64,000 nt of DNA, taken from NCBI RefSeq assembly GCF_017901155.1, contig NZ_CP072800.1, positions 3,003,283 through 3,067,282 of the forward strand, read 5' to 3'. Position 1 is the stretch's first letter. Every line of letters starts with the position of its first letter. The notes beneath the pieces were generated by a model, which saw nothing but the letters and a program-made list of their open reading frames with translations, did no database searches and had not been told where the DNA came from. Origin of the DNA: Candidatus Thiothrix anitrata. Its GTDB lineage: Bacteria > Pseudomonadota > Gammaproteobacteria > Thiotrichales > Thiotrichaceae. Of the stretch, positions 38,725-58,787 are shown one piece after another. Made by a program: the position numbers and the translations under genes.

Positions 38725-38976
38725 ATGCAAAACCTGTTTATTTACGACCAAACCGCCCCCAAACGGGCAGCAAACCTGAGCATCAATAGTTCGTTGCTGG
38801 AACAGGCACGCTATTACAAAATCAACCTATCCAAGCTATTAGAAAAAACGCTCATTGACACGCTTCAACAAAAAAAGCGTGAAGAGTGGCTGAAACAAAA
38901 CCGTAGCGCACTCCATGCTTACAATGAACGCATCGAACAACGCGGCGTATTCAGTGACGGATTAAGGCGGTTTTAA
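38725..38976 (+). CDS. ccdA: Antitoxin CcdA
   Basis: Protein of 83 residues. The N-terminal ribbon-helix-helix part (RAANLSINSSLLEQARYYKIN) binds DNA; the C-terminal part (EEWLKQNRSALHAYNERIEQ, RGVFSDGLRRF) is the classical CcdB-binding tail. It neutralises CcdB. GGAGC precedes the ATG. The stop overlaps the ccdB start by one base. Confidence 0.9.
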   Translation: MQNLFIYDQTAPKRAANLSINSSLLEQARYYKINLSKLLEKTLIDTLQQKKREEWLKQNRSALHAYNERIEQRGVFSDGLRRF

Positions 38977-39287
38977 TGGCGCAATTTGACGTTTACCGCA
39001 ATACCAACAGTGCGACAGTGGGCGACATTCCCTACCTGTTGGATGTGCAAACCGACTTGCTGGACATACTCAAAACGTGCGTCATTGTGCCGTTAGAAGT
39101 CTGTGGCAATGCCAAACCAGTTCAAACGCTAACGCCCATTTTTGACATTGAAAATACGCTGGTGATGATGTCCACACCGGAATTAGCAGGTATTCCTGCG
39201 CGTTATTTGGGTGAATACGTCACATCGCTCGCCAGCCAACGCCAAGAAATCATGGCCGCTCTGGATTTGTTGTTTTCGGGGATATAG
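38976..39287 (+). CDS. ccdB: Toxin CcdB
   Basis: Protein of 103 residues, gyrase-poisoning toxin family: start MAQFDVYRNTN, middle DIPYLLDVQTDLLD and VPLEV, and the end SLASQRQEIMAALDLLFSGI. The C-terminal GI and preceding Trp-position region contact GyrA in F-plasmid CcdB; the usual C-terminal Trp is Leu here. Translation is coupled to ccdA. Chromosomal location suggests maintenance of the surrounding accessory region. Confidence 0.92.
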   Translation: MAQFDVYRNTNSATVGDIPYLLDVQTDLLDILKTCVIVPLEVCGNAKPVQTLTPIFDIENTLVMMSTPELAGIPARYLGEYVTSLASQRQEIMAALDLLFSGI

Positions 39288-39323
39288 TCGCTAGTTCGGG
39301 CGTAGCAAAAACGAGGGTACACC

Positions 39324-39680
39324 ATGAATAAACTCAGCATCTTGCCGCTATTGACCTGCTTTTTTCTGGTCGCTTGCCAGACACTGGGAACTGGCATGGC
39401 AGGCAAGGCTTCGTACTATGCGCATCAATACCACGGTCGCCCGACTGCCAGCGGTGAACCGTACAATATGTATGCGATGACTGCCGCCCACCCCAGCTTG
39501 CCTTTCGGCACGTTGCTGCGTGTAACCAACTTGCGAAACGGGCGTGCTGTCCTAGTAAGAGTGAATGACCGTGGCCCTTACAAAGCGGGACGGGTTGTTG
39601 ATGTGTCGTTGGCAGCGGCGGAACAGCTTGGGTTGATTCTGCCGGGTACGGCGGAGGTACGGCTGGAGGTTGTACGGTAA
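39324..39680 (+). CDS. RlpA-like double-psi beta-barrel lipoprotein
   Basis: Protein of 118 residues. The lipobox LVAC (C18) predicts a lipoprotein. The rest is the RlpA barrel: [56 protein letters not shown]. RlpA cleaves glycan strands lacking stem peptides; its catalytic Asp corresponds to the one in VNDRGPY. There is no SPOR domain, so it is a short form. It sits between two toxin-antitoxin pairs. GAGGG precedes the ATG. Confidence 0.9.
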
Positions 39681-39708
39681 CAGGATTTAGCCAAAATCCA
39701 TGCATTTA

Positions 39709-39727
39709 TTGCCAATAGTTGCCAATA
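39709..39727. repeat. Tandem TTGCCAATA repeats before parD
   Basis: TTGCCAATA occurs twice, ten bases apart, so both lie on one DNA face, 39 bases before the parD start. Likely binding site for the ParD antitoxin. Confidence 0.5.
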
Positions 39728-39765
39728 AACCTAGAATTCATGAAAACCATCATGGAGTTTCGGCA

Positions 39766-40023
39766 ATGGCAACCTTGAATATTTCTCTTCCTGACCAGTT
39801 GCGTGATTGGATCCGCACACAAATTACTTCCGGGCGTTATTCCAGTGCCAGCGATTACCTGCGGGATTTAATCCGCAATGACCAGCGCGTGTTAATGCAG
39901 GATTCGCAATGGCTTGCCAATCATTTGCAGGCTCGGATGGCAACACCGGATGAGGCGTTTGTGGCGAGCAGTGCGGCGGATGTGAAGGCACGGGTGCGTA
40001 AGCAACTGGATAAATCGGCATGA
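39766..40023 (+). CDS. parD: Antitoxin ParD
   Basis: Protein of 85 residues: MATLNISLPDQLRDWIRTQ is a ribbon-helix-helix start, followed by SGRYSSASDYLRDLIR, the standard ParD motif, and a C-terminal tail that wraps the toxin. The ATG at 39766 overlaps no gene; the stop overlaps the parE start by 4 bases. Confidence 0.92.
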   Translation: MATLNISLPDQLRDWIRTQITSGRYSSASDYLRDLIRNDQRVLMQDSQWLANHLQARMATPDEAFVASSAADVKARVRKQLDKSA

Positions 40024-40388
40024 CGTTGCTGTATACCTTTCACCCATTAGCAGATGCCAAACAGGATGAAATCTGGCATTACACTTATCAGCAATGGGGA
40101 ATGCAGCAGGCGGACAAGTACATTGATGGTCTGCACGCAATCTTGCAGACCGTTGCTGAGAACATGAAACATCCCAAGGTTCGGTCATTACCGCCGGAAG
40201 TAACTACAGGTGTCTTTTTCGTACATTACGGCAAGCATTACGTGTTTTTTCGGCGGGCAGCGGAGCATTTGCCTGAACACATTCAGGTTCTGACGATATT
40301 GCATGACAACATGGATATTCCGGCAAGAGTCAAAGAAGACTTGGATGCTTTGGATCAGGACTGGGGTGATAATTTTATCCATGAATAA
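40020..40388 (+). CDS. parE: Toxin ParE
   Basis: RelE/ParE-superfamily toxin of 122 residues with HPLADAKQDEIWHYTYQQWG, then HPKVRSLPPEV and the beta-strand end HYVFFRRA and VLTILHDNMD. ParE toxins act on gyrase. It is longer than usual by about 20 residues, with an acidic C-terminal extension (DLDALDQDWGDNFIHE). Coupled to parD by ATGA. Confidence 0.92.
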   Translation: MTLLYTFHPLADAKQDEIWHYTYQQWGMQQADKYIDGLHAILQTVAENMKHPKVRSLPPEVTTGVFFVHYGKHYVFFRRAAEHLPEHIQVLTILHDNMDIPARVKEDLDALDQDWGDNFIHE

Positions 40389-40454
40389 CATCCCATCCTG
40401 CTAATCCTTAAATTCTAAAAATCCCAGTTCAGACAAACGCGCAAGAACCGCCTC

Positions 40455-40477
40455 CGGCGGCATTACGGCTACCGCCG
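40455..40477. other. GC-rich hairpin just downstream of the TIR-NACHT-FGE gene
   Basis: CGGCGG and CCGCCG form a 6-bp stem with an 11-base loop, 18 bases beyond the stop codon of the minus-strand gene. Diversity-generating retroelements often need a hairpin just after the variable region; a terminator is unlikely as there is no T-run. Confidence 0.4.
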
Positions 40478-40494
40478 CCCTGCTTGACTGTAGC

Positions 40495-43242
40495 TCACTG
40501 ACCTAGGGCAAGCCGAAAACCAATGCTGTAGTTGCGATCACCCGGAACGTCGTTGCTGCGACAAACAGATCGGCAACTCCTGCCATGGCCGAACCAAGAG
40601 CCACCGCGCAACACGCGGAAAGTGCCAGATAAATCCGGCTCAATCACCTCCGGCTTGTCATACTGATTGAGACACCATTCCCAGACGTTCCCTGACATAT
40701 CCATCAGACCGTAGGGCGACTGGCCTTGAGGGCAAATACCGACAGCAGAGGTTTCCTGCAAGTTATATTCACCTACTTTGTCATGATCCCAAGTTTCGTT
40801 GATATTCGCATAGCCAGTTTTGTAGCCTTTACCCCACGGGTATTCCCGACCATCAGTACCCCGTGCCGCTTTTTCCCATTGCGCTTCGGTGGGCAGACGA
40901 ATATCCAAGTCCAGCTTTTTAGACAGCCAGCGACAAAAAGCCATTGCCTCATACCAATTCACCCTCTCCACCGGACGGTTATTTTCTTTCCAATATGGCT
41001 CATGGGGCGTTTCCGGTTTTTGTAGTCTTCCCCACCATTTATCCGTTTCGTAACCACCATCCGCCACGAATGCTTGAAATTGGGAGTTCGTGACCGGGTA
41101 GCGGCTCATTTTATAGGTCGGCAAAGACAAGCGTTCACCACCCTGATAGATAAATTCACCAACAGGGATTTCCACCCAGTCGATGTCATCGATGCCGAGT
41201 CCGAGACGATCATCCCAATCCAGCCACGCCAACACGGTGCTAATCGCATGACGTTCGTGTGGGTTGGGGTAATGTTCAATGTCGGTGATGGCGTTTTGCC
41301 ATTGGCGACGGAATGCGGCAAACAAAGCGTCATCTAACAAGCCTTGTTCGCGGGCAATTTCAGCCGCCAGTTTCGGGTTTCCAGCCGCCAGCCATTGCAA
41401 AAATGGTTTTGGGTCAACTTCGTATTCGGCAGCAAGCTTGGCAGCTTCCTCCCAACCGTTTGCAGCCCACCACTGCTCAGGCCAAAGCGTTTTGGCTTGT
41501 AAGCCGTCTGCCCGTCGCTCTTCAAAACTTTGTGCGGTAAAGAACTCTTGTAGCAACTGGTGTGAAAAACGCACGCTATCGCGGGTCAACTCCAACAAAC
41601 TGGCGGCAGCAGCAAATTCCAAGCGTGGCAAGGGCATGATCGCGACAGCATCAGCACGGGACAACACAGTACGGACTTCCTCAGCGGACTTGGTACGGCT
41701 TTGCAGTTGCCATGCCAGCCGCTTGAGTTCGACTTGTAGCTCGTCCTGATGCGCTTTGGGGTAATGATTGTCCGGTTTGGCTTGTACCTCCCGATAAATC
41801 AGGTCGGCAACGAACTCACTGAACAGGGCAAAGCGGCTTTGGGGCAATTGCTGCTGTTCGCTGTAGATCACTACCATCTGAGTCAGCAGATACGGGTTGG
41901 CTGCCAGTTTCATAAGGCTACGGGAGTCGTTCAGGTATTTTTGCCTACGCCCACCTTCCCACCAATGTTCATTGTCGCCTGTTTTCCACTCTTCTGGGAT
42001 TTCAGTCAGTGTCCAGAATTCCTCCCAGTGGTTTTCATGCCCACGTTTTTTCCAGTCTTCCCAACTTTCGCGCATCTCTTCCCCACCCGCCAGTTGCCAG
42101 AACAGCTTTTCCGCCAACGTATGGGCAGCTTCGTCTTCGGCAAAGTAGTTGTGCAGGAAGTCGTGGATACGCGGCGGGTCGAGTGACTCTATCGTCAGCC
42201 GGTCAAGCTCTTGTTCCAACGGCCCGCGATAATCCCGCAGACGGCAGGTCAGCAGTACGGATGCCGTCGGATAACGCTCCAGCCATGCGCGGACTTGTGG
42301 CAGCTTTTCCTCACGCTGGTCAAAGGGAATTTCGTTCAAAGCATCGAAGAGCGGCAGCAGGCGTTTGCTTTGGTACAACGTGGCAAAGTGGCTTGCCAAA
42401 TCACCCAATTGTTCCAACACAAAGTCATGCAACAAGCTTGGGCTATCCCAACGGTTAAGCGGGATCACTACCGGCAGGATTTGGCTCGGCTGCTCCAGTG
42501 CTTTTTGGGCGTAATCGGCGGCAATGCGCCACAGAGAAAAAGTTTTGCCCGCGCCCGGTTCACCCAAAATCACCAGCCGTTTGTGTTCACCGAAAGCGGC
42601 GATGACATCACCGTGTTCAACACATTCGCCCACGGCCTCCAGCGGTTCGCAATATTCGGTGCGCTTACGGTGGCGTAAACGTGGCGACATGCAGGCAGCG
42701 GCAACCCGCTTGTGTTCCTTACGAAATTGCCCTGCCAACGGTGCATAGACTTTGCCCGCAAAACGCAGGGCGCGTTCTTCGTTGTCATGCAACAAGGCTT
42801 CGAGATAAGCAGTCTCCAACTTGCGGAGTTGTGCATCCGTACTGTCAGGCAAATACTCGCGGATGCGGGTCAACAAACGCTGCCAATCCTTTTCTTTGTA
42901 ATCGCCATACAATCGTGCAACCTGCACATCATTCATCTGAAACGGCACATCACCCGCCGTTGCCAACACCGGAATGATCGGGATGCGCAACTTATTGGCT
43001 TCAATATATTCCTTTTCCACCCAAGGGCGGTCATGCGAAGCGGGCGACACCACTGACAACACCACACGGCACTGCTTTACCCCATTACCCAATGCCTGAA
43101 TCCAGCGTTCGCCCAAACGGATACACTCCGTATCCAGAAACGCCGAGATACCCTCTGCCTGCAAACGCTGGAACAATTCATTTGCCAACGCCTGCCCATC
43201 CGCACCATCTTGCGGGTAACTGATAAAAACGGGTGGTGTCAT
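40495..43242 (-). CDS. TIR-NACHT-FGE conflict protein with DGR-like variable end
   Basis: Protein of 915 residues from ATG 43242. Residues 3-130 are a TIR domain (VFISYPQDG start; W74-x3-E78 in the position of the NAD-cleaving Glu). Residues 220-350 carry a NACHT-type P-loop (GEPGAGKT, 227-234) and Walker B ([11 protein letters not shown]). A helical region follows. From about 695 there is a formylglycine-generating-enzyme/C-type-lectin fold, ending RVLRGGSW...[13 protein letters not shown]. The Cys pair of active FGE is not kept, so a binding role is likely. The protein could sense a ligand, oligomerise and destroy NAD, as in antiphage TIR-STAND proteins. A start at 43326 is possible but lacks homology. 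Confidence 0.85.
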
Positions 43243-47039: not shown

Positions 47040-50000
47040 TCATACTCGACTTTGCCCACTCGCCATTTTCACCAAAACCCGTTCCATCATATCTTCCACG
47101 TATCTATTCGGGAGATCGTTCTGGAACAGGATATGATGATCGGCAAACGTAGCGTCATGCCCCCACCACTGGATTTCCTGTTTACGTGTGGTCGAGAGGA
47201 TAAAGGAATTCAGGATAATATCCTGACCATCCGCCTGATCCCGGTACTTGTCCTCGTAGGTTTTGATGGTGTGGGCAAAACGAATTTTAGGGTGATTCAA
47301 ACCCTGTACATTGCGCAAACCCTTGGGGTCAACGAAGGTAATCCACTGTCTGTTTTCTTTCTTCAACCACAGGATGAAATCCGGGTAGAAATTACCGGCA
47401 TCAAAGAAGCCCACGCCGCTTTTCGACTGGTTACGCAGCAAGTACAACTCATGCCCCTGCAACAGATCAGGCTTGCTCTCTACCCACTGCCTGAGATCAC
47501 GCACAAATTGCGCTTCACCTGTATTCAAATGCACGGGCTTGACCTTGACGGTATGTCCTTTGCCGGAGAGCTCCACCAGCGGGAAATACAGGTGGAAATC
47601 GGCACCGATGAAATGGAAGTCGCCGTGCCCCTTTAAATCCAGCACGGCATCTGCCCGCTTAGCATTTTTTAGACGGATTTCTGCATCTTCCAGCAGGGTA
47701 ATCAGGCTTTTTTCCGTAACAGGGACTTCTACCTGATATTCCTTGACGAAATTCGGGTCAGTAGTTTCCACCGTCTGGTATTCCAGATACGGTGCTTCGT
47801 ATTCCTGCTTTTTCAGGGCATAGAAACGTTCGCAATAGCGTTTCAGTAACACGGTTGCCACTTCCTGCCAAAGCTGGACACGCTCAAAACCTTTGCTACC
47901 AAATACCCAGAACTCGGGCGGGATTTTCAAGGTGTACCAAGTGGAGTCCGCCAGCAAGGTTTGCAAGGCTTCGCGTGTCACTTGCAGGTTGTGCCAGCTT
48001 TTTTCGTTCTTGAAGCGCAGGATTTCAAACAGCAATTGGTCGTAATCCAGGAACGCGAGTTGGTAGCGCCCAAAACGGGCTTCATACAGGTCAATGCTGT
48101 GTTGTTTACCTTGCAGGTGCAAGGCATCTGTCTGCTGACCGCCTGCCTTGCTTTGTACCCGTGGATACCAGTCCAGCACCACCTTGATGTCGTGCTTATC
48201 CGGTGCTTGCCCGAAAACCGGTCGGGCAGCCTGTTTAAACGTGGGCATGGATTTGCTGGGGCGCAACAGTTTCAACTGGATGCTTTGCAACCCGGCTTTG
48301 TCCGGGGTTGGGATCACCTTGAGTTTGAAGGTGCGGGTTTCGTTCTCTTCGCTTAAGCCCTGATCTTCCAGCAACTGGCGAAATTCATCCATGTAACTGG
48401 CGCGGACACCGAAGATATTCAGGGTTTCCAGATAACGTAAAAATTCAGGGTGTTGCTGCTCGTCGTCACGGCGTACAAAGCCGGAACGTTGCAAGCCAAA
48501 ATCATAACCCTTGAGGCGCACCCCACGCCCGAACAACTGGATGATCTCTGACCCCTTGTTCTTGCCAATATTCAGCAAGCCCATGGTACTGACGCGCCAT
48601 GAACTCCAACCCTCGGTGAACTTCTTGGCACCAATCAGGATGTTGATGGCGGAACGGCTGGTATTGATGTCGCGGAATAATGACCCGGCGAATACTTTCT
48701 CGCTCACGGTGAAATGAGGCCGCTCCAGTTGGCTACGCTCATCTTCCAGCAACTTGCAGAGCTTGCCGGTATCGCCGACATTGATCACCGCGAAATAATC
48801 TTTGGCATCACCGACCCGAAGACCGATTTCACCGTCTGTACCTTTCAGTTCTTCCACATGCAGCAGACCACCGATGGCGGTGTTGAAAATGGCACTGCGT
48901 AAATCCTGATACAGCTCTGCCGCGCTGCGCTGGTGATACTGGCTGACGATGTAACTGAAACGCTCCTTAAATACACGCTGGCCTTGTCTGTCGACCAAGC
49001 TTTCATTGCCATGCAGCAAGCGCTCCAAATGCGGCACAAATTCTCCCCGTTTTTGTTCGCTCAGGAAGTCCGCCAGAAAATGGACAATCAGGGAGATGTC
49101 GCTTTGCTGTTCATCCAGATCTTTGCCTGTGACCGTGCCACCGACAAACAGGCACAACGGGTTATCCAGCAAGTAGGGCTTGATCTGTACTGCCTGATCC
49201 TGAAACAGCAAACGCTGCTGGAAAAACGCCAGTAAACAGCCGGTCAGGTACAAATCCTGTGATTCTGCCAGTGCTTTGCTTTCCAGATTGAGGATATGGA
49301 AATCCTTGCCGAAACCGTCGTTGTAGAAATAGCGGTAGGAATAATCCAGCAGGATGCATTTGGCGTAGAGCTGGGTCAGGCGCTGTTGCTGGCTAGGCGC
49401 GTCTTTTTCGCCTTTCGGTTTGGTCGTGGATGCCGCTGCTATCGCCTGCTCGAAGGTCGCGGAATATTCATAGGAAAAACCGTTTTCACAAAGCTGTTCA
49501 CGCTTGTCCAACCACTCTTCACCGCTGGCTCCTCGGTGGCCTTCATCCACCAACACCAGATTTTTGCCTTCAAAATTACCCACAGCAACGGTGGTATCGC
49601 CATCCTTGTCCTTGAGTTGGTGGATGTGCAGAATTTGCACCCCGAAACCCAAGGTGCCCTGCTGCGATTGGCGGTTTTTGCTGTAGAAGTCAGCACTGAT
49701 GCCGGAGTCCAGCAACTCGCGTTGATGTTGTTCGGATAATCGCGCATTGGGGGTTAGTAGAATCACCTGCTCAATCTCGCGCTGCTTGTTGTGCTGTTTC
49801 AGGTAATGCTGGGTTTGCAGGAGGTTGATGTGCATCAGCAGGGTTTTGCCTGCCCCTGTTGCCATCCAGAACGCCAACTTGTTGAGATCCGATGGCTGAT
49901 ATGGCTCGATTTTGAGCTTTTTGTCCAGATTCAGATTAAAGCTGTGCAGGTGGGCATTCAGTTCTTCACAGAAAACCTCACGGTCTTTCCAGTAGCGATC

Positions 50001-50324
50001 CTGATAGATTTCGTTGAACAGCAAGGCCATGTACTGGAAGTACAGCGGGTAGAGGCTTTGCCCGGAATGGTTGCGCTTTTCGCTGATCTTCTTCCAGTGG
50101 CTCACGATATTCAGGTCGTAATCACGTAGCTGCTCATCACGGATACGGCGGCTACGCTGCGGGAAAGCTTCAGTCAGGCGCACGTAAAAACGGCTGTTGC
50201 CGTCTTCAGTGAAACCGCTGAGTTCTTTGTGGTGCAAGGCTTCGGAAAGGTCGGTGAATTGCGTCACCCCGAATTGCTGGAGTAGCCAGTCGTTTAACAC
50301 CAGTTGGCGGGGGAAATCACTCAT
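47040..50324 (-). CDS. res: Type III restriction enzyme subunit Res
   Basis: Protein of 1094 residues. The SF2 helicase Walker A is FWMATGAGKTLLMH (GAGKT 157-161), followed by the DExH box in LVLVDEGHRGASG and later helicase motifs (LIGAKKFTEGWSSWRVSTMGLLNIG, IIQLFGRGVRLKG). Near the end YPDFILWL...FVDPKG is a PD-(D/E)xK-type nuclease core. Works with Mod to cut DNA between inverted unmethylated sites after ATP-driven movement. AAGGAG precedes the ATG at 50324, which overlaps the stop of the DUF4276 gene. Last gene of the seven-gene operon. Confidence 0.88.
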   Translation of the reverse strand: MSDFPRQLVLNDWLLQQFGVTQFTDLSEALHHKELSGFTEDGNSRFYVRLTEAFPQRSRRIRDEQLRDYDLNIVSHWKKISEKRNHSGQSLYPLYFQYMALLFNEIYQDRYWKDREVFCEELNAHLHSFNLNLDKKLKIEPYQPSDLNKLAFWMATGAGKTLLMHINLLQTQHYLKQHNKQREIEQVILLTPNARLSEQHQRELLDSGISADFYSKNRQSQQGTLGFGVQILHIHQLKDKDGDTTVAVGNFEGKNLVLVDEGHRGASGEEWLDKREQLCENGFSYEYSATFEQAIAAASTTKPKGEKDAPSQQQRLTQLYAKCILLDYSYRYFYNDGFGKDFHILNLESKALAESQDLYLTGCLLAFFQQRLLFQDQAVQIKPYLLDNPLCLFVGGTVTGKDLDEQQSDISLIVHFLADFLSEQKRGEFVPHLERLLHGNESLVDRQGQRVFKERFSYIVSQYHQRSAAELYQDLRSAIFNTAIGGLLHVEELKGTDGEIGLRVGDAKDYFAVINVGDTGKLCKLLEDERSQLERPHFTVSEKVFAGSLFRDINTSRSAINILIGAKKFTEGWSSWRVSTMGLLNIGKNKGSEIIQLFGRGVRLKGYDFGLQRSGFVRRDDEQQHPEFLRYLETLNIFGVRASYMDEFRQLLEDQGLSEENETRTFKLKVIPTPDKAGLQSIQLKLLRPSKSMPTFKQAARPVFGQAPDKHDIKVVLDWYPRVQSKAGGQQTDALHLQGKQHSIDLYEARFGRYQLAFLDYDQLLFEILRFKNEKSWHNLQVTREALQTLLADSTWYTLKIPPEFWVFGSKGFERVQLWQEVATVLLKRYCERFYALKKQEYEAPYLEYQTVETTDPNFVKEYQVEVPVTEKSLITLLEDAEIRLKNAKRADAVLDLKGHGDFHFIGADFHLYFPLVELSGKGHTVKVKPVHLNTGEAQFVRDLRQWVESKPDLLQGHELYLLRNQSKSGVGFFDAGNFYPDFILWLKKENRQWITFVDPKGLRNVQGLNHPKIRFAHTIKTYEDKYRDQADGQDIILNSFILSTTRKQEIQWWGHDATFADHHILFQNDLPNRYVEDMMERVLVKMASGQSRV

Positions 50325-50977
50325 GATTGCGCTCCTTGACCGCCTAACGACTCCAGCCACCGTAGCCATTCGTTGAAATTCGGGCATTGTTCACGGATAG
50401 TTTGCAGACCAATCTCTGCGGCAATGATGACACCATGACCATCTTTGTCATAGGCTCTCCCAAAAATCTTTTCTAATCGCTTGGATGGCGCAGTTTCAGG
50501 GCTATCATTGATCATTTCAGGCGTATCGAAGCCATTCCTGATGCTTAACAATTTGTTATGGTAATGCTCACTCCAATCATCCAATAAAACCCATTCAAAT
50601 TTTGTTACATCACTGAACAATAACCCTTCAAACTCATGCAGTTGAACGTATGGTTTAAAACAAGGTAAAGAGCCACCTGCGTGTTGCTGTGCATCAGCAA
50701 TAATCGCGGCTTCAAGCGAAGCCCGACTGTGCCCTTGTTTACCATGAAACCGATAAAAATCCACCAGCGTCGTGACATAATTAAAATGCGCATAATCATG
50801 TTTGACGTGCTGTGCAATTCTCATCGTCGTCACATCACCACCGCCCTGTTTACCCGGTCTGGTTTTCAATAGAGAGGGGATAATGACAAGACCGAAATCC
50901 CGCAAATGTGGCTCTAGCACTTCTTTAACAAAAGCCAATTCAGTTTGACCTTCGCAGATAACACAAACCCTAATCAT
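50321..50977 (-). CDS. DUF4276 (TOPRIM-like) protein
   Basis: Protein of 218 residues. Its start VCVICEGQTELAFVKEVLEP places an acidic residue after a strand as in TOPRIM folds. TTLVDFYRFHGK and YVQLHEFEGLLFSD follow, matching the DUF4276 pattern; the acidic positions could bind metal for nuclease action. It overlaps both neighbours by 4 bases (ATGA), the AAA ATPase upstream and Res downstream. ATPase plus TOPRIM-like pairs form antiphage systems in several known cases (PARIS and AbiL are examples of the principle), so a defence role is likely. Confidence 0.75.
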   Translation of the reverse strand: MIRVCVICEGQTELAFVKEVLEPHLRDFGLVIIPSLLKTRPGKQGGGDVTTMRIAQHVKHDYAHFNYVTTLVDFYRFHGKQGHSRASLEAAIIADAQQHAGGSLPCFKPYVQLHEFEGLLFSDVTKFEWVLLDDWSEHYHNKLLSIRNGFDTPEMINDSPETAPSKRLEKIFGRAYDKDGHGVIIAAEIGLQTIREQCPNFNEWLRWLESLGGQGAQS

Positions 50978-52101
50978 GGCTGTCCCCCAATAACATTACT
51001 CAGCCATAAGTCAGATACGGTAAAGTTATCATCCAGCCATTGCTGATATTGCGCTTGGCTTAGCTTGCGTAATTCGGTTGCGCCTGCTTCAACATCAACA
51101 ACGGTGATGTCATCCAACGAAAAACCATCAACCATCAAGGGGGATTGCGTGGCTAAAATAACCTGACAACGTGCCGATAGTGTGCGGATCATCGCGGCGA
51201 CCAGTACCACAGCATTCGGATGTAAACCCAACTCTGGCTCATCCAGCAGAATAACGGGGGGTAACATTTCCCTCGGTAAATTGAGCAATGTCACAAGACA
51301 AAACAACCGTAACGAACCATCCGACGTTAAGTGCGCCCCCATGGTTTTGTCACCAAATTTATGCTGCCAACGTAGCTCAACCCTACCCGCCACTGGATTT
51401 AATTCAAAGCCACCAAAACTGGGTAATACACGCCGGATTTGCTTTTCGATTAATTGAAAACGTTTGACATGGTTTTCGCGTAAATACAACAGCACGGCTG
51501 CCACATTTCCCCCGTGGGAACGCAAGAAAGCATAATCGTTCATATCCCATGCTTGTTTGAGATACGCATTTTTAGAAGTATCATGAAATTGGTACGACAC
51601 GATGCCACGTAATAAATGCACAATTGCTTTAGCGGTTGCATTGGTTGTTTTAGCTGTTTGCGCCACGTCCACCAAAGCAGACTCACTGCCACCGACCGGT
51701 AATTGTGACCATTTTGCTTCACTACTCTGCCCACTGGCAGAGAATCGGTAACGCTCTTCCACAAATATCAATTTATTGGCGGCGGCTGCGGATAGGGTAA
51801 ACGCATAGTCATTCATGCCTTTCGCTGTTTCCAGCACAATAGTCGCTTTCAGATGTGGGGTACGCTTTGCCCCCATGAACAACTGATCATCCGCCCCGCC
51901 TTGATCACCGATAAACTCCTGTAATTTTTGACCTTTTAACATCCAGCTCAACATTTCAAAAAAACGCATCAGATTAGATTTGCCTGCACCGTTCGCACCA
52001 ATCAGTACAGTGAGTGGCTGCATATCTTGTAACTGCACATCTTTCAGGCTACGAAAACCTTCAATGTGTAGGCTTTTCAAATGAATCAAGTTTTCGTTCA
52101 T
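50974..52101 (-). CDS. AAA/SMC-like ATPase paired with DUF4276 protein
   Basis: Protein of 375 residues of the AAA_21/OLD-like class: Walker A GANGAGKS (35-42) after FRSLKDVQL, and Walker B ILLDEPELGLHP, followed by CQVILATQSPLMVD. The start ATG 52101 has GAGGAA upstream. It overlaps the DUF4276 gene (ATGA) and lies 72 bases after mod. The ATPase probably senses infection or DNA ends and drives the TOPRIM partner. Confidence 0.82.
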   Translation of the reverse strand: MNENLIHLKSLHIEGFRSLKDVQLQDMQPLTVLIGANGAGKSNLMRFFEMLSWMLKGQKLQEFIGDQGGADDQLFMGAKRTPHLKATIVLETAKGMNDYAFTLSAAAANKLIFVEERYRFSASGQSSEAKWSQLPVGGSESALVDVAQTAKTTNATAKAIVHLLRGIVSYQFHDTSKNAYLKQAWDMNDYAFLRSHGGNVAAVLLYLRENHVKRFQLIEKQIRRVLPSFGGFELNPVAGRVELRWQHKFGDKTMGAHLTSDGSLRLFCLVTLLNLPREMLPPVILLDEPELGLHPNAVVLVAAMIRTLSARCQVILATQSPLMVDGFSLDDITVVDVEAGATELRKLSQAQYQQWLDDNFTVSDLWLSNVIGGQP

Positions 52102-52173
52102 TTTAGGTTCCTCACAGCAAGCCACGAACAAATATCCATCAATTTTCCAGACAGTGTTTGGAATATTGGCATC

Positions 52174-55100
52174 TCACATCTCCCCTGAAAACATCAGCCG
52201 TTGGAACTCTTCTTCAATCAAACGCACTTTCCAGTGTTCCTCTTCGGTGCGGATATTGGGCAAGGTGTTGTCGCCGTTGACGTAGATGACATCCAGTTCG
52301 CCTTCACGCGGGTTGATGCGCTTGCGCTCCAGTAGATAATAGTCCAGTGCGATGTTGTGGCAGGTTTTGGCTACCGGATGGGTGAAATCGTTGAGGGTGC
52401 GCCAGACGATCAGGGCGCTTTTGCCATCCGGTAATGTGCCGTGGAGGGTGAGGAAGGTGTAGGTGTCGGGGTCGCCGGGTTGGGCTTTCTGGCGTACCTG
52501 CTGGCGTTGCCAGATGCCGTGTTCGTCCGGTGCGCAGGTGACTTGCACGGTGTCTTGCCGCTGGGTGTGAACGGTGAGGCCGAGCAGGTAGTTGAAGGTT
52601 TCGATCAGATCGACGTTTTGTTGGCGGGTTTCGCCTGCCGAGTCGGTGGCGATTTGCATCCGGTAGGCGAAGGGCTGGGTGAAGGCATCAATATTGAGCA
52701 GTGAGCCTTTGGTTTCGATGTCCAGCATGTAGTTGAGCAGGTAATCCTCGTGGAGTTCGGGCTTCTGATCGAGCAGGGATTGCTGCTGACCACTGCGGCG
52801 CAGCTCCAGATTGTTGAGGGTGTCTTCGTAGCTTTCCAGCTTCATGTACTTGAAGCAATGGGAAATGCCGCCGAAGACCCTCACCCCAACCCCTCTCCCA
52901 GAGGTAGAGGGGCTAAGAGAAGGCGCATCTTGCTCCCCCTCTACCTTTGGGAGAGGGGGCTGGGGGGGTGAGGGTTTTTGGGATTCAACCGGCTTGCCGT
53001 CTTTCCAGTTTTCGGAATACACCACTTTCTGAATGCGCGGCTTCAGCACCGTATCGAAATACGCCCCTTGCTCCACCAGAATGTACTTCCGACTACCGCC
53101 ATCCTCCCGATTCAAATTAATCACCGCGTGCCCCGTCGTCCCCGATCCCGCAAAATAATCCAACACCAAACCAGATGATGATTCATTATCACCTTGACCC
53201 ACAAAAATCTTTATAAAATCAATAGGCTTAGGGAAGTCAATGGCACGATGATTAAATAATCTCTGAATATCTGCTGTGCCATTTCTTGTATAAATTGACT
53301 CACCAACTAATGATGAGAAACCTGTAAATTCTGATTGAAGATCATCGTAAAACGCCTTTCTGCGTGGTCTACCATCTTCTGAATTCGGCCAAAGAATACG
53401 ATTATCCTCGATCAAGAAATTCATTGTTTTTTTATCATATCGCCACCCCATATCGGGACAACCGTAATTGATATTTGTTATTGGGTTTATTAAGTCATAA
53501 TGTAAATTTGGTCGCCTATCTTTTGTTGCTAGTCCAACCATATTAGCACTTGTCCAATCCCCTCTAGAATCATTGTCTGGATTTGTGTACTGATCGGTCT
53601 TTCTTTTAGAGCCTTTTATTGGTGCGCCATAACCAAGTATATATTCATGATCAATTGAAGCGTTATTGTCGGATCTGTTATCTTTGTTCTGACGACTTTT
53701 CCATATAAACGATGCTACAAATGCTTCTTTTCCAAATATATCATCACAAAGCAAATGAATATTTTTAAACTCTTTATCATCTATGGATATAAAACTAATT
53801 CCATCTTTTGATTGTAACGATAATGAATAGCCAAGCCGACTAGCCATCATCGTCATCCACGACGAGTGCTGGTAGTTGTCGCGGTAAATAAATCCATCGT
53901 TACCCGTGTTGTAAGGCGGGTCGATGTAGATGCATTTGACTTGCTCGTGGTAGCGGTCTTGCAGGAGGTTGAGCGCTTGGAAATTGTCGGCATTGATCAG
54001 CAGGCCGTCACATTGCGCGTCTATGTCTTCGATGGACTCCAGCAAGGCCAGTTTGAAGTCAGCCGGATAGAATTTAGTGTCAATCAACAGGTAAGGCTGT
54101 TGCTGTAGGTAAGCCACATCCACCCGCGTTTTCGCGTCAATGAAGTTCCACTTGCGCCACTCAGCAAGCTGCTGCGGATTATCGGCAATCGCCGCATACA
54201 ACGCCCCCGGCACACGATCCAGCGTCAAACAGTAATCACACTGGACGACAAATTTCTTCTTCAACCACAGCTTTTTCTGAAAATCCTCCAGTTGCGCCAG
54301 AAAGTCGATCACCTTCCCCGCCACCCGCCGAATCGCCTTGAGGGTACGCAAATACGACTCCACCTTCGGCGCATCCGCATCCTCAATATCATCCAGAAAC
54401 ATCACTTCATTCTTGATGTAGAAATCCAGCTCATTCCGCAAAAACCCACCCAAATCCTTATGGATGAAGTAATCAAAACTGTTCTTGGCGGTGTAATCCG
54501 TCAGATGCTTTTCCAGCAAAGTGCGCTTGGGGTTAGCCTTAGTCGGCAGCAACGCACTCAAAGCCGTTTGCCACGTCCCCGGAACCCGCTTCCCCAACTC
54601 ACGCAAAGCCAGCGCATTAAACACACTCTGACTAACGGCTTTCGCCTTACCCTCCACATCGGTGACTTTCTTCTCATCCGTCGTGGTGTAATGGAAATGG
54701 ATGCGCAGCTCATCGCCCTCTTCCACCACCGGCTCATCCGCCGCCAGCATAAAGAAACGCTTGTCACCCTTGGTATTATCGCGGTTGGTATCGGCATCCG
54801 TGAGCTTGAAATGCACCACACGCCCATCCGCCAGCCGGAAACGGTAATCGCGGAAATTCTCGCTGGACTTGATGTAATACTGATCCGCATTCGCCCAATG
54901 CAGCTTCACTTCCTCGCCATTGTAGGGAATCGCGTATTTAGCCTTGCGTGACACCCGACGCAAGGATATGAAATCGCCTTCCTCGTAATAGCGGCTGAAA
55001 AAACGGTACAGGTGTTCATAAACCTCATCCTCCATTCGCTGCGGATTGCCCAGCGCCCGCAACTTTTCCCGCAATGCCTGCACCTTCGGCACCTGATCAG

Positions 55101-55359
55101 GATTCATCCCCAGATCACGCACGGATTGTTCCGCTTTGCCCAGTTCCGCCTGCAACTCCGCCTGCTGGCTACCCTGTGCCGAACTCAGCAGCCCCGCCAC
55201 CGTCTGCTTCAAACGGTTACGCAGGAAATCGTCAATCTCATCCTGCCGCTGGGCAATGATGCGGTAAATGCCGAAATCCAGATCAGCCTTGTCCAGCTCG
55301 AACAGCTCGCGGAGTTTGTCGACCAGCTTGCTGTAGTTGGCGTTGTCGGGGGTTGCCAT
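52174..55359 (-). CDS. mod: Type III DNA methyltransferase subunit Mod
   Basis: Protein of 1061 residues. Motif IV DPPYNTG (about 476) precedes motif I LDYFAGSGTTGHAV (about 735), the beta-class order of N6-adenine/N4-cytosine methylases. The N-terminal 450 residues are an extension found in large Mod proteins. The segment between the motifs, encoded at about 53180-53860, is markedly A+T-rich and should hold the target-recognition domain. Residues about 796-829 are encoded by a REP-like repeat pair (PPQPPLPKVEGE, SLSPSTSGRGVG). It recognises the site for both methylation and Res cutting. It starts 26 bases after the preceding gene. Confidence 0.9.
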   Translation of the reverse strand: MATPDNANYSKLVDKLRELFELDKADLDFGIYRIIAQRQDEIDDFLRNRLKQTVAGLLSSAQGSQQAELQAELGKAEQSVRDLGMNPDQVPKVQALREKLRALGNPQRMEDEVYEHLYRFFSRYYEEGDFISLRRVSRKAKYAIPYNGEEVKLHWANADQYYIKSSENFRDYRFRLADGRVVHFKLTDADTNRDNTKGDKRFFMLAADEPVVEEGDELRIHFHYTTTDEKKVTDVEGKAKAVSQSVFNALALRELGKRVPGTWQTALSALLPTKANPKRTLLEKHLTDYTAKNSFDYFIHKDLGGFLRNELDFYIKNEVMFLDDIEDADAPKVESYLRTLKAIRRVAGKVIDFLAQLEDFQKKLWLKKKFVVQCDYCLTLDRVPGALYAAIADNPQQLAEWRKWNFIDAKTRVDVAYLQQQPYLLIDTKFYPADFKLALLESIEDIDAQCDGLLINADNFQALNLLQDRYHEQVKCIYIDPPYNTGNDGFIYRDNYQHSSWMTMMASRLGYSLSLQSKDGISFISIDDKEFKNIHLLCDDIFGKEAFVASFIWKSRQNKDNRSDNNASIDHEYILGYGAPIKGSKRKTDQYTNPDNDSRGDWTSANMVGLATKDRRPNLHYDLINPITNINYGCPDMGWRYDKKTMNFLIEDNRILWPNSEDGRPRRKAFYDDLQSEFTGFSSLVGESIYTRNGTADIQRLFNHRAIDFPKPIDFIKIFVGQGDNESSSGLVLDYFAGSGTTGHAVINLNREDGGSRKYILVEQGAYFDTVLKPRIQKVVYSENWKDGKPVESQKPSPPQPPLPKVEGEQDAPSLSPSTSGRGVGVRVFGGISHCFKYMKLESYEDTLNNLELRRSGQQQSLLDQKPELHEDYLLNYMLDIETKGSLLNIDAFTQPFAYRMQIATDSAGETRQQNVDLIETFNYLLGLTVHTQRQDTVQVTCAPDEHGIWQRQQVRQKAQPGDPDTYTFLTLHGTLPDGKSALIVWRTLNDFTHPVAKTCHNIALDYYLLERKRINPREGELDVIYVNGDNTLPNIRTEEEHWKVRLIEEEFQRLMFSGEM
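52878..52974. repeat. Paired REP-like repeats inside mod
   Basis: Two GC-rich arms in opposite orientation: one begins CCCTCACCCCAACCCCTCTC, and the other, read on the opposite strand, begins CCCTCACCCCCCCAGCCCCC. Each holds a small internal palindrome of the CTCTCCCAxAGGTAGAG type. The pair is read through in frame within mod. Confidence 0.75.
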
Positions 55360-55385
55360 GTAGAAGCCTTAATTAGTGAAGGAGG

Positions 55386-56324
55386 TTATTGAACAATGGG
55401 TTTATCAAGTTTTTGCCCCATATAAGCAATGATGGCTTTTTTATCTTGAGTACAAATACGGAAGTGAACCCTACCAGCGATGCCACAAGTAAAGCGTAGA
55501 TGCCAGTCAAAATCATGCACGATGCCATTATCCATGACTTTACAAAGCTGCTTACGGGTTGCGCCTTCTGGTGATGCCTTACTGGAGAACTCAGGCCACA
55601 CGGCGGTGGTTTCAATCCAACGGGCAATATCCTGATTCAGTTCACGCAGGCGCTGAACGACCAAATGATAGGCTGCACCGGAAACACCCAACTTACCCAT
55701 ATCATCTTCTGTGCGCACTAAAAACCGTAAATGCGGGAACAGCGTCTCACGTTGTTGCCATAGTTCGCCTGCACTGGGTAATATTTCAAACAAATACCCT
55801 TGCAACCAGTGGCTATGAACCGTTATATGAGCAGGCTGTACGAAGTGGCGTACTTCAACGGAGACTTCCTGTATTTCTGCCTCTTCATCCAACTCTTGCC
55901 GCAAGACGGAAAGAAACGGCAATTCCCAAAACTGCTCTAAGGGAAAGCTCACCAAGGCAGTATCCAACTGATCAACCCAACCCATACCGACAGCGGTTTG
56001 TCCCTGATAGCGATACTCGACTTCCTGTACTTGCAGGCTAAATGCTGCATCCATATCAGCCGCAAACGGCGAACGGTTGGCAAAACCACGCAAAAAACGC
56101 CACTCGTCCTTGTATTCGTTACCGGCCAATAGCTCAGACAAGGTATAACGAACATCAACCAAGGTACTGGCGAGTGGTTGTTGTGAATTTAAAGCAACCT
56201 GCTGCAACTTCCTTATACCTTTCAAAACCTTAAGCAAGCACAGTGCCCGCTCTCTGGCTATTTCTTGTGTCAATGCGACAGAATCTGTTGATAGTTCATT
56301 CAAAAATAATACTAGCATGATCAA
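55386..56324 (-). CDS. Unknown partner protein of the DUF262/DUF3696 module
   Basis: Protein of 312 residues, soluble, without recognised catalytic motifs. The N-terminal part is helical (LTQEIARERALCLLKVLKGIRKL); later there are beta-rich stretches (VEVRHFVQPAHITVHSHWLQ) and a basic end (VHFRICTQDKKAIIAYMG). The ATG at 56324 overlaps the stop of the ATPase gene by 4 bases, so both are produced together. No family recognised. Position suggests an adaptor or effector for the ATPase. Confidence 0.7.
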   Translation of the reverse strand: MIMLVLFLNELSTDSVALTQEIARERALCLLKVLKGIRKLQQVALNSQQPLASTLVDVRYTLSELLAGNEYKDEWRFLRGFANRSPFAADMDAAFSLQVQEVEYRYQGQTAVGMGWVDQLDTALVSFPLEQFWELPFLSVLRQELDEEAEIQEVSVEVRHFVQPAHITVHSHWLQGYLFEILPSAGELWQQRETLFPHLRFLVRTEDDMGKLGVSGAAYHLVVQRLRELNQDIARWIETTAVWPEFSSKASPEGATRKQLCKVMDNGIVHDFDWHLRFTCGIAGRVHFRICTQDKKAIIAYMGQKLDKPIVQ

Positions 56325-57442
56325 TCATCCAGAAGCGCATCAAGACTCTTGTCCCACTGATCAAAGAAACCATCCGGCCATGCTGTCAAACGACCATTAG
56401 GCAAAACCTGGGGAGATTGCACACTGGCATCACCAGACTCATAAGAACGGGTAAAGAAATGCATGGCTACCTGATCGGCCTGAATCAGCGATTGCTTTGC
56501 CGCCAGCCGGATACCATTCAACAAATGGTCGCTGTGAGTTTCAACAATAATCTGCACGCCATCGGCGGCACAACGCGCCAATAGCTCACCCAAGGCCGCC
56601 TGTCCTTGCGGGTGAAGATGTGCTTCCGGGTTTTCTAGCAATAACAAACTGCCTTTAGGTGCAGCCAGACAGGCGACAATAATTGGCAAGCTATAGGTTA
56701 GGCCAAAGCCGACATTACTTGGGCGGCGTTTTTTCTCGCTCAGTGTAGTTTTGTGACTGGTGTAATTGAATTGCAATTGTACTTCGTCCGTACCATCAAT
56801 ACGCCCCGACGTTAACCGCGCTCCGGGGCTTAGGAATTGTAACCATGCCGCCACTTGATCCTGTAACTTATGGGTATTGGCAATCTTCACCAATAACTCT
56901 GCGGGGATAACACTGGATAGTGATGCGCAACGTTTTTCACTGATTGTCTGCTTTTCACCAAAACGGGCTAGATAATCTACTGTGTATTCACCACCAACAC
57001 CTAAGAAATCTGTTTGCAACGGCGTTTGTGGGTAAAAAGTTCGCGGTGTCATCCGATCAGCTTGTAGAAACTGAAAATGTGGATTTTGTAAAAATTCTGG
57101 TACAGCCGGAGGATTTTGTACTGTTAGTTGCTTACCCTCCTTGTTTACTTCGCACTGCCACAGAAAATTCTGATTATCTTCTGTTACTTGAATCGTGATT
57201 TGGTCATTCTGTGCGGTTTCGCTCAACACATCTTCCCACTCACCCAAGCGCAACAAGTCCCCACTCAAATGCAAGGTAGCGGTATCACCACTTTTACCAA
57301 AACTTTGACGCAACAATGCGATAGCTTGCAAGGATGTGCTTTTGCCCGCACCATTCAACCCAGCCAACACCGTCAATGGAGCAAGATTCAAACTCACATC
57401 ACGGCTCACCTTGAAGTTTTTTAGCTGAATCTTTTCAAGCAT
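56321..57442 (-). CDS. AAA ATPase with DUF3696-like C-terminus
   Basis: Protein of 373 residues. Walker A GLNGAGKS (28-35) follows LAPLTVLA. Near the end LLLENPEAHLHPQGQAALGEL is Walker B/D-loop and IIVETHSDHLLNGIRLA the H-region, followed by a short DUF3696-type tail (HFFTRSYESGDASVQSPQVLPNGRL). Such ATPases occur in several antiphage systems. The ATG at 57442 overlaps the DUF262 stop by 8 bases; an earlier ATG at 57478 would overlap by 44. Cytoplasmic. Confidence 0.85.
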   Translation of the reverse strand: MLEKIQLKNFKVSRDVSLNLAPLTVLAGLNGAGKSTSLQAIALLRQSFGKSGDTATLHLSGDLLRLGEWEDVLSETAQNDQITIQVTEDNQNFLWQCEVNKEGKQLTVQNPPAVPEFLQNPHFQFLQADRMTPRTFYPQTPLQTDFLGVGGEYTVDYLARFGEKQTISEKRCASLSSVIPAELLVKIANTHKLQDQVAAWLQFLSPGARLTSGRIDGTDEVQLQFNYTSHKTTLSEKKRRPSNVGFGLTYSLPIIVACLAAPKGSLLLLENPEAHLHPQGQAALGELLARCAADGVQIIVETHSDHLLNGIRLAAKQSLIQADQVAMHFFTRSYESGDASVQSPQVLPNGRLTAWPDGFFDQWDKSLDALLDD

Positions 57443-58787
57443 TATTAGTTTCCTTATCGTCTCGCAGTGCTTGATCAAAAATATATTGCATGGCTTCGAC
57501 TCGCTTATTCGATGCCCAACCTTTGCTAGTCACAAATGTAATTGCTTTTCTAAAACTAAGCTTTATAAGTAAATAGTGAGAAGACTCGCCACCATTATCA
57601 TCTTCTATAGAAGCAATCGCAGCATCTAATTCATCATTAGATAAATCAAAACTAAAGCTCATGAAATCATCTGATGTAATAAGCGGCTTATTTAAACTTG
57701 AGAAAGGAAAAAGGTCAGAGAACTCATTTAAAATCTCATTTTTTTTTGAAATTAAAATATTCAACTGATTTATATCATAACGTGATAAAATCCCCACTTG
57801 GGCTTCAAACAAACCTCGATTAATAGGCTTGCGCTTTTCATTCTCCCGGTAATACTTGCGGAACACATACTCATCAAAGACAATAGGTGCAATAAATAGT
57901 GCTGCTCTGATGTGCACCTGCACTATCTTCCATTTTGCGTCATCCCAATGCTGGCATTCTTTTTCTACAAACGCATTGAGATAATCTTCCAAGTTTTGAT
58001 CATTTGGACGTGGCTCACGTTGATGATGTATGGCTACCGCTCGGAGCATTAGCTCCATGTCTTCCATCCGTTTAGCTTGAATTTTGCCTTCGGTAGCCTG
58101 CTTAAATTCATCACTCTCGACCAACTTGCGGATTTCATCGCGCCACCGACCGGGATAAATAGCGTTACGAATTTCCTGTGCCGTCAGTGGCAATCCACCC
58201 TCATTAATGCGGGAAAAGATATTGAACTTAACCGCCCCCGGTGTCCCAGAACGGATAACATGCACCATTAACTCGGTTTCCAGAATACGCCGCTGCAACG
58301 GACGTTCCAGCTCATTAAAGGTTTTACCCTTCAAGTCCTGAAAAGAACGCAAACCCTTAGCATTCAATGCTAGAGGCTTCAAGGTTGTCCCCAAGGCATC
58401 GTTTAAAGCATCCACATCCACAAAATGCGCAATGGCTGACATTCGTTGTAACCCATCCACGACCGCGTAGTTGCCATCCTTGTCTTCCGATACATACAGG
58501 GAAGGAATGGGGATTTTCAGCAAAATAGACTCAATCAATGATGTTTTACGGTCGTCACCCCATAAATTGGCATGGCGTTGAAAGTCAGGGGACAAATCCA
58601 TCTCGCCATGCTTCAAACGGCTCAACAACACAGGAATGCTGCGCGGCTGGGTCACAATGTCTATTTTGGCAGGATCAAACGGCTGCTCTGGTGCTGGAAG
58701 ATCACTCGCATCAGTTTCTTTTTCCAGTCCTGCTGAATCCGTTTCCGGCTCTATCCTAGCATCCACTTTTTGATCAACTTCACTCAT
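57435..58787 (-). CDS. DUF262 protein
   Basis: Protein of 450 residues. After a low-complexity acidic N-terminus (residues 1-45), the DUF262/GmrS-type fold appears: IPVLLSRLKHGEMDLSPDFQR, LIESILLKIPIPSLYV, AVVDGLQRMSAI and the ParB-like arginine/glutamate environment, RINEGGLPLTAQEIRNAIYPG. DUF262 occurs in GmrSD-type IV restriction enzymes and in other defence loci, acting as NTP-dependent component. No DUF1524 HNH domain is visible after it, so nuclease action must lie elsewhere. The last third is more A+T-rich. First gene of the operon. Confidence 0.82.
   Translation of the reverse strand: MSEVDQKVDARIEPETDSAGLEKETDASDLPAPEQPFDPAKIDIVTQPRSIPVLLSRLKHGEMDLSPDFQRHANLWGDDRKTSLIESILLKIPIPSLYVSEDKDGNYAVVDGLQRMSAIAHFVDVDALNDALGTTLKPLALNAKGLRSFQDLKGKTFNELERPLQRRILETELMVHVIRSGTPGAVKFNIFSRINEGGLPLTAQEIRNAIYPGRWRDEIRKLVESDEFKQATEGKIQAKRMEDMELMLRAVAIHHQREPRPNDQNLEDYLNAFVEKECQHWDDAKWKIVQVHIRAALFIAPIVFDEYVFRKYYRENEKRKPINRGLFEAQVGILSRYDINQLNILISKKNEILNEFSDLFPFSSLNKPLITSDDFMSFSFDLSNDELDAAIASIEDDNGGESSHYLLIKLSFRKAITFVTSKGWASNKRVEAMQYIFDQALRDDKETNNA

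Follow-up and report, generated by a model that had tools for sequence, protein, structure and literature searches.

Gene locus and domain architecture

The stretch analysed here (the window, 64,000 nucleotides in full) comprises bases 3003283-3067282 of the genome of Candidatus Thiothrix anitrata, a single contig of 3,546,315 bp that is 99.56% complete. It contains a reverse-strand gene whose product joins a TIR effector domain, a NACHT domain and a C-terminal domain of the formylglycine-generating enzyme (FGE)/C-type-lectin type, which ends in a variable region (VR) of the diversity-generating retroelement (DGR) type (Table 1). Domain profiles and the open frame bear out the coordinates and the architecture proposed in the initial annotation, a TIR-NACHT sensor with an FGE end, and the C-terminal motifs that it listed (RVLRGGSW, then NNC/NNT codons, then IGFRLA ahead of the stop) are present in the window as claimed.

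Table 1. Features of the TIR-NACHT-FGE gene and its 3' end, in window coordinates
Feature	Coordinates	Strand	Details
TIR-NACHT-FGE gene	40495..43242	-	915 aa, ATG to TGA, frame intact
TIR effector domain	42871..43230	-	aa 5-124, PF13676, 2e-18
NACHT domain	42136..42576	-	aa 223-369, PF05729, 3e-11
FGE/C-type-lectin-type domain	40507..41127	-	aa 706-912, PF03781, 1e-50
Variable region (VR)	40501..40617	-	39 codons, CGC GTG to CTA GGT
IMH-like 3' end CTTGCCCTAGGTC	40500..40512	-	GGT here; GCT in T. fructosivorans template
Putative exchanged VR cassette	40438..40629	-	83% to G006 FGE fragment; 5' junction 40629-40658
Inverted repeat CCGCC-GGA-GGCGG	40448..40460	-	40 nt beyond last VR codon; weak; read by eye

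The VR occupies the final 117 bases ahead of CAG TGA. At the other end of the protein, TIR residues 2-93 align with the TIR domain of SARM1, WVEKE lying opposite WVHKE with the Glu kept; we take this Glu of the WVxKE motif to be the catalytic residue. The NACHT domain contains the Walker A motif GEPGAGKT (read by eye). Matches to the FGE part include formylglycine-generating enzymes and, at a phmmer E of 1.9e-18, the variable protein 2y3c of Treponema, and placement of the VR on a C-type-lectin/FGE fold is supported by sequence; the predicted model of the domain, from five sequences, has a mean pLDDT of 35 and was set aside. The annotation had the FGE cysteine pair missing, which is correct for one position of the two: in an alignment to human SUMF1 the first is Gly, encoded by a variable codon, and the second is still Cys. 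The two aligned SUMF1 positions are presumably the FGE catalytic pair. The window protein, of the same domain family as SUMF1, keeps one of these cysteines and does not have the active-site Cys pair of a formylglycine-generating enzyme.

The neighbourhood of the gene is a plausible defence setting. CcdA/CcdB and ParD-like/ParE toxin-antitoxin pairs lie just downstream (window 38725-40388), and a block at 47040-57478 holds type III restriction-modification genes (47040-50387 and 52174-55359) together with two AAA_21 ATPase genes.

DGRs in related Thiothrix genomes

Intact DGR reverse transcriptases (RTs), with the motif IGSLTSQ or IGNLTSQ, are found in six of the 16 genomes of our genus comparison: G003 (T. 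fructosivorans), G007, G008, G009, G010 and G012. The DGR RT of G011 is broken, and in the other nine genomes, including the present one, nothing matches the query DGR RT at more than 30%. Relatives with complete DGRs have AAC-rich templates, and their IMH reads GGT in VRs and GCT in templates; among the 16 genomes the exact template form of the IMH occurs in G003 only. The five complete template-VR pairs with an intact RT (G003, G010 L100, G012 and both G009 targets) differ at 8-17 A sites and at none of the other sites compared. Non-A differences number 1/87 for both targets of G062, a different genus of the same family, 0-1 for G010 VRs on other contigs when compared with their best template, and 3/88 for the G011 target that adjoins the broken RT.

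Some further elements of these genomes should be mentioned. The T. fructosivorans DGR has a second, short FGE target (L106:11484-11621) with a one-base indel in its VR, the in-register part of which shows no non-A difference from the template. The G003 cis2 row, with 19 non-A differences that all fall in the first 23 positions, was dropped from the comparison, as a one-base indel keeps the two halves of this copy from being in register together. A separate template-like type, AACAGGAATCATCC, is present in five genomes (G006 L178:8334-8450, where G006 is Thiothrix sp. UBA5583, and its relatives L161, L162, L166 and L168); no RT was found in G006. G013 has 33 PF00078 matches at E<=1e-6, many equal in score and none close to the DGR RT query.

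Variation at the 3' end of the gene

In a blastn search of its own genome, the window tail has four FGE relatives at 74-81% identity, located at 2840, 2987, 2989 and 2995 kb, and a further 42-base match at 1890 kb. Three of these relatives belong to a ternary locus (L027:7527-15929, genome 2987-2996 kb) that encodes a trypsin-like protease, a MoxR-like ATPase, and three FGE proteins with VRs, one long and two short; the ATPase is an AAA_5 protein that looks MoxR-like, with PF20030 below its cut-off. The 2987 copy is one codon longer than the others and is absent from the pattern-based VR-template listing, though present in the A-site and identity comparisons. The variable VR codons are mostly NNC or NNT, such that bases one and two vary and the third is mostly fixed, and between them silent sites are conserved.

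A template of exactly the VR type seen in the window was detected in none of the genomes searched; the nearest differs at 21/84 non-A sites, and the A map of the window VR therefore comes from related templates; these were taken from other Thiothrix species, three in all, to avoid circularity. When the window copy is compared with those at 2995, 2989 and 2987 kb, variation affects 22 of the 27 A sites versus 12 of the 90 other sites (Fisher p=7e-11), and two other templates used as the A-site map give p=1.6e-8 and p=1.7e-10, values that assume independent sites and come from four related copies with one 2987 codon left out for register. Permutation of template codons gives p<=1e-5 for the A-site enrichment, and when the map is shifted codon by codon the correct register scores 22, the maximum among 38 shifts being 13. 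With the 2840 copy added, variation extends to 26/27 A sites and 27/90 others.

The window and the three ternary-locus copies are 79-82% identical within the VR versus 42-44% just upstream, and codons for the same amino acid are identical in 84-91% of cases in the VR versus 41-55% upstream. The link with the 2840 copy is weaker (69% in the VR versus 48% upstream; 67% versus 51% for same-amino-acid codons). In the duplicate pair 2995/2987 it is the upstream part that is more alike (88%, versus 79% in the VR), and this pair is an exception at the codon level, with 80% of same-amino-acid codons identical in the VR versus 78% upstream.

One might suppose that the tail was never written by a DGR and is an ordinary FGE loop shaped by diversifying selection or by gene conversion between paralogues. 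Conversion would indeed give paralogues that are highly identical in the tail, the 2995/2987 pair has no excess of silent-site identity in its VR, and the RGGSW...GFR frame is common to FGE domains, which is why RVLRGGSW...GFR was rejected as DGR evidence by itself. However, variation falls on template A sites, silent sites around the variable codons are mostly conserved, VR-type GGT stands opposite template-type GCT at the 3' end (GCCCTAGGTC in the window, GCCCTAGCTC in T. fructosivorans), and the G008 orthologue of the gene has an adjoining template from which it differs at A sites only. We consider such an origin highly improbable. Judged by these comparisons, the 117 bases ahead of CAG TGA are a DGR variable region by descent, and both the A-site test and the G008 template agree with the annotation's proposal of a DGR-type VR on a TIR-STAND sensor. 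The hairpin downstream of the VR was rejected as evidence, as its stem in the window measures just 5 bp and some templates, too, are followed by hairpins. Versions with 6 bp occur after two G010 VRs (the limit of that search was 6 bp, above the window's stem).

The window VR departs from the majority of the four copies of its type at six non-A sites. Two of these are in codon 19, for which the base of the template is uncertain, and this leaves about four, against none in the five complete pairs described above. The departures could reflect a different template instead of decay.

Orthologues of the TIR-NACHT gene

Of the other 15 genomes, seven contain matches to more than 450 residues of the TIR-NACHT part; these lie at eight loci with 36-88% identity, and all eight were compared over about 10 kb each. 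The G007 orthologue is broken and its FGE part is of a different type. Six orthologue tails are of a related VR type that ends in LLCCFPH or similar, versus the LALGQ type of the window, and the tail of the G010 orthologue is more diverged in the alignment. The gene family includes a demonstrable template-VR pair, in G008, the VR of the window gene belonging to a different type: the G008 orthologue differs from the adjoining template at 14/27 A sites and at 0/90 others. The RT that lies between this target and its template is split by a frameshift and stops. A C-terminal RT fragment adjoins the orthologue in G010, and another adjoins one of the pair in G011, so that RT remnants are present at three of the eight loci; no RT match was found within the approximately 10 kb compared at each of the other five. 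Relative to the G008 template, five other tails differ at 6, 8, 8, 17 and 38 of the 90 non-A sites and at 13-19/27 A sites; the tail with 38, that of G003, is partly out of register because its VR is one codon shorter.

The TIR-NACHT part gives dN 0.113 and dS 0.823 against G006, and dN 0.148 and dS 1.409 against G010. These values indicate that it is under purifying selection, and the gene is thus probably in use. Internal stops are found in the G006 orthologue and in one of those of G011.

Search for a mutator in the genome

The PF00078 profile detects three RTs in the genome, and all three were rejected as DGR RTs, two being CRISPR-associated and one a DRT. The first adjoins Cas1/Cas2-like genes and a repeat array (read by eye), the second is a Cas6-RT-Cas1 fusion and the third is a DRT of type UG13a (PADLOC E 1e-230). 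With a Thiothrix DGR RT as query, nothing closer than 29% was found in this genome. As for the surroundings of these enzymes, the CRISPR region with the Cas6-RT-Cas1 fusion (L001 and L025, genome 3084-3101 kb) has a second RT with Cas1/Cas2-like genes about 14 kb off, and the UG13a defence RT (L026:7438-9252) has TIR-like and transposase-like ORFs nearby (by eye).

Searches of the same genome for a template returned none by blastn at E up to 10, none by the template-core pattern with 3 mismatches allowed, and none by the IMH pattern, in VR and template forms, with 2 mismatches allowed. Plasmid and phage collections gave no match, and viral contigs no exact IMH match. The 23 viral RT loci obtained from IMG/VR, in a scan that first requires an exact peptide match, are only 27-35% identical to the Thiothrix DGR RT. 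A mobile-element source of the RT and template was rejected on these results.

The annotation had suggested that diversification would act in trans, and had set beforehand, as its refuting test, a genome search for a DGR RT and a template repeat. Neither was found in this single-contig genome, and the suggestion gained no support. For its second refuting condition, strains that differ elsewhere but not at A-derived sites, the comparison covered the copies within this genome, and these vary mostly at A-derived sites. Of what makes up a complete DGR, neither an RT in the genome nor a template with A-only differences was detected. The DGR origin proposed for the tail is right, and nothing in this assembly supports present activity. 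An RT and template outside the assembly, on a plasmid, in a prophage or in population variants, might still rewrite the VR in trans. According to section 8 of PMC10907252, DGRs of Thiohalocapsa can act in trans, and its populations include variants whose RT is intact. The G010 MAG, whose contigs are fragments, has VRs on C9 and C29 that agree with a template located on a separate contig at every non-A site or at all but one, and the G005 VRs described below indicate that activity can be very recent in a genome where no RT is found. Given the completeness of the present contig, the empty plasmid, phage and IMH searches, the distance of the viral RTs and the roughly four non-A departures of the window VR from its type, we regard ongoing rewriting as unlikely, and loss of the mutator (RT and template) as the better reading.

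Other VR-like tails and probable mutator loss

The tail of the window gene is one of eight called VR-like among 20 PF03781-matched stretches, in a genome with no mutator found. The others are the three of the ternary locus, those at 1890 and 2840 kb, and a pair at 3240 kb (L030:9961-10963). The 1890 kb tail shows 6/87 non-A and 17/27 A differences to the T. fructosivorans template, the 2840 kb tail 9/84 and 15/30, respectively, to the G012 template, and the members of the 3240 kb pair differ from each other at 18/29 A sites and 4/88 others. The second FGE match of that pair is broken over several frames. FGE tails at 2186 and 1053 kb were dropped as VRs, with 35/87 and 43/88 non-A differences to the best template.

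Like the ternary MoxR-trypsin-FGE systems with a DGR (DGR 8/clade 5A type) that passages of PMC10907252 and PMC7159879 describe, the locus at 2987-2996 kb has the ATPase, the protease and the FGE targets; unlike them, it has its long and short targets, as listed ORFs, only 133 bp apart with no RT match, and no template was found there. In G009 and G062 an RT and a template lie between the long and short FGE genes. The ternary locus of G005 contains a 23-nt template remnant together with 101 nt that show 93% identity to the 3' flank of the T. fructosivorans template (L254:9123-9249), and no DGR RT was found in this locus or the rest of that single-contig genome. The three VRs of G005 match the T. 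fructosivorans template at 87/87 non-A sites and differ from it at 14-17/27 A sites; with a match at all non-A sites, loss of the RT, or the activity of a hidden one, would be very recent. The ternary locus of G007 retains 44 nt that match an RT end at 82%.

A probable exchange of the tail

The window gene aligns with its G008 and G006 orthologues only up to 40658. Beyond this point its sequence at 40629-40438, which covers the VR, the stop codon and 57 nt more, is shared with an FGE fragment in G006 (Table 1) and is 74% identical to the 2840 copy in the same genome. The VR type is that of the ternary locus about 50 kb away. The tail is of a type unlike that of the orthologues, and we infer that it is a VR cassette acquired by recombination.

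DGR homing from a second template could give the appearance of such an exchange by overwriting the VR with no recombination at all. Homing can replace a whole VR, the VR types share RGGSW and GFR ends, and for the G011 orthologue the alignment continues through into the VR, at 77%. The stretch in common with the G006 fragment, however, reaches 57 nt past the stop and includes the IMH, and DGR homing does not transfer the IMH itself. Recombination seems to fit better because the IMH and the 3' flank differ too, and homing is in our opinion a rather unlikely source of the new tail.

Relation to known systems

Parts of PMC10907252 describe DGR-diversified NACHT and nSTAND sensors with FGE/CLec tips, some with TIR effectors, and also degenerate loci, remote targets and ternary systems. 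Thiothrix is not mentioned in its main text, and no paper in the library searched treats Thiothrix together with diversity-generating retroelements. DGR-linked FGE domains in ternary systems are treated in a portion of PMC7159879, and a passage in PMC8144416 states that its own metagenome approach would miss remote targets. Among the closest likenesses to the window protein are STAND/NACHT sensors of Thiohalocapsa PB-PSB1 and relatives (DGR 3, DGR 6 and clade 5D in PMC10907252), which have a central NTPase, a C-terminal FGE/CLec domain with a VR and in some cases an N-terminal effector (TIR is mentioned), and which likewise belong to multicellular bacteria. Unlike them, the Thiothrix gene is in a genome with no RT or template found, and its VR type differs from that of its orthologues. 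DGR-diversified NACHT/TIR sensors are thus already published, and what we add is the recurrent loss of the mutator in Thiothrix, with VRs retained and exchanged.

With its N-terminal TIR effector and NACHT NTPase, the protein belongs with the TIR-STAND (bNACHT-like) proteins and has the effector-NACHT-sensor order of the anti-phage members; unlike in these, its sensor is of the FGE/CLec type with a VR, and PADLOC matched the TIR part only. The FGE-type C-terminal domain is also present in Treponema TvpA (2y3c), presumably with no TIR-NACHT fusion.

A proposed history of the receptor

We think it probable that the window gene encodes a frozen former DGR sensor whose VR type changed before the mutator was lost. 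By analogy with its domain families, the FGE/C-type-lectin tip would bind a ligand, upon which NACHT would oligomerise and TIR would act, most likely on NAD+, to stop the infected cell, possibly by suicide. An error-prone DGR would once have rewritten the tip by copying a template with A changed to any base and homing at the CTTGCCCTAGGTC end. The family to which the gene itself belongs had a DGR in cis, and its RT has decayed wherever traces are found. In the present lineage the VR and its 3' flank may then have been replaced through recombination with a cassette of another DGR family, the type found in the MoxR-like/trypsin ternary locus. Subsequent loss of the RT and template of that second DGR would have fixed the variable residues and left them to ordinary mutation only.

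A wider scheme, which we put forward tentatively and as somewhat less than an even chance, is that the Thiothrix mutator is a plug-in that was gained, lost and shared repeatedly, and that the immune sensors with VR tips endure and exchange VR cassettes with one another. A sensor would change its DGR allegiance by taking up the VR and IMH of another family, and mutator loss would fix the last selected variants as innate-type receptors, the window gene being one such captured receptor. Bacteria have few closer counterparts to hypermutating immune receptors than DGRs, and a genus with intact, broken and deleted mutators in related sensor families could provide direct tests of the benefit of hypermutation, of selection on frozen variants and of the transition from hypermutable to fixed receptors.

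Orphan VRs can escape DGR surveys that are centred on the RT: ends in VR form and of the type seen in the window are found in 13/16 genomes at <=2 mismatches and exactly in 8/16, as a count of sequence ends of which some were checked to be VRs, and an intact DGR RT in 6/16. In the wider family, 15/63 genomes match the 2989 VR at E<=1e-5.
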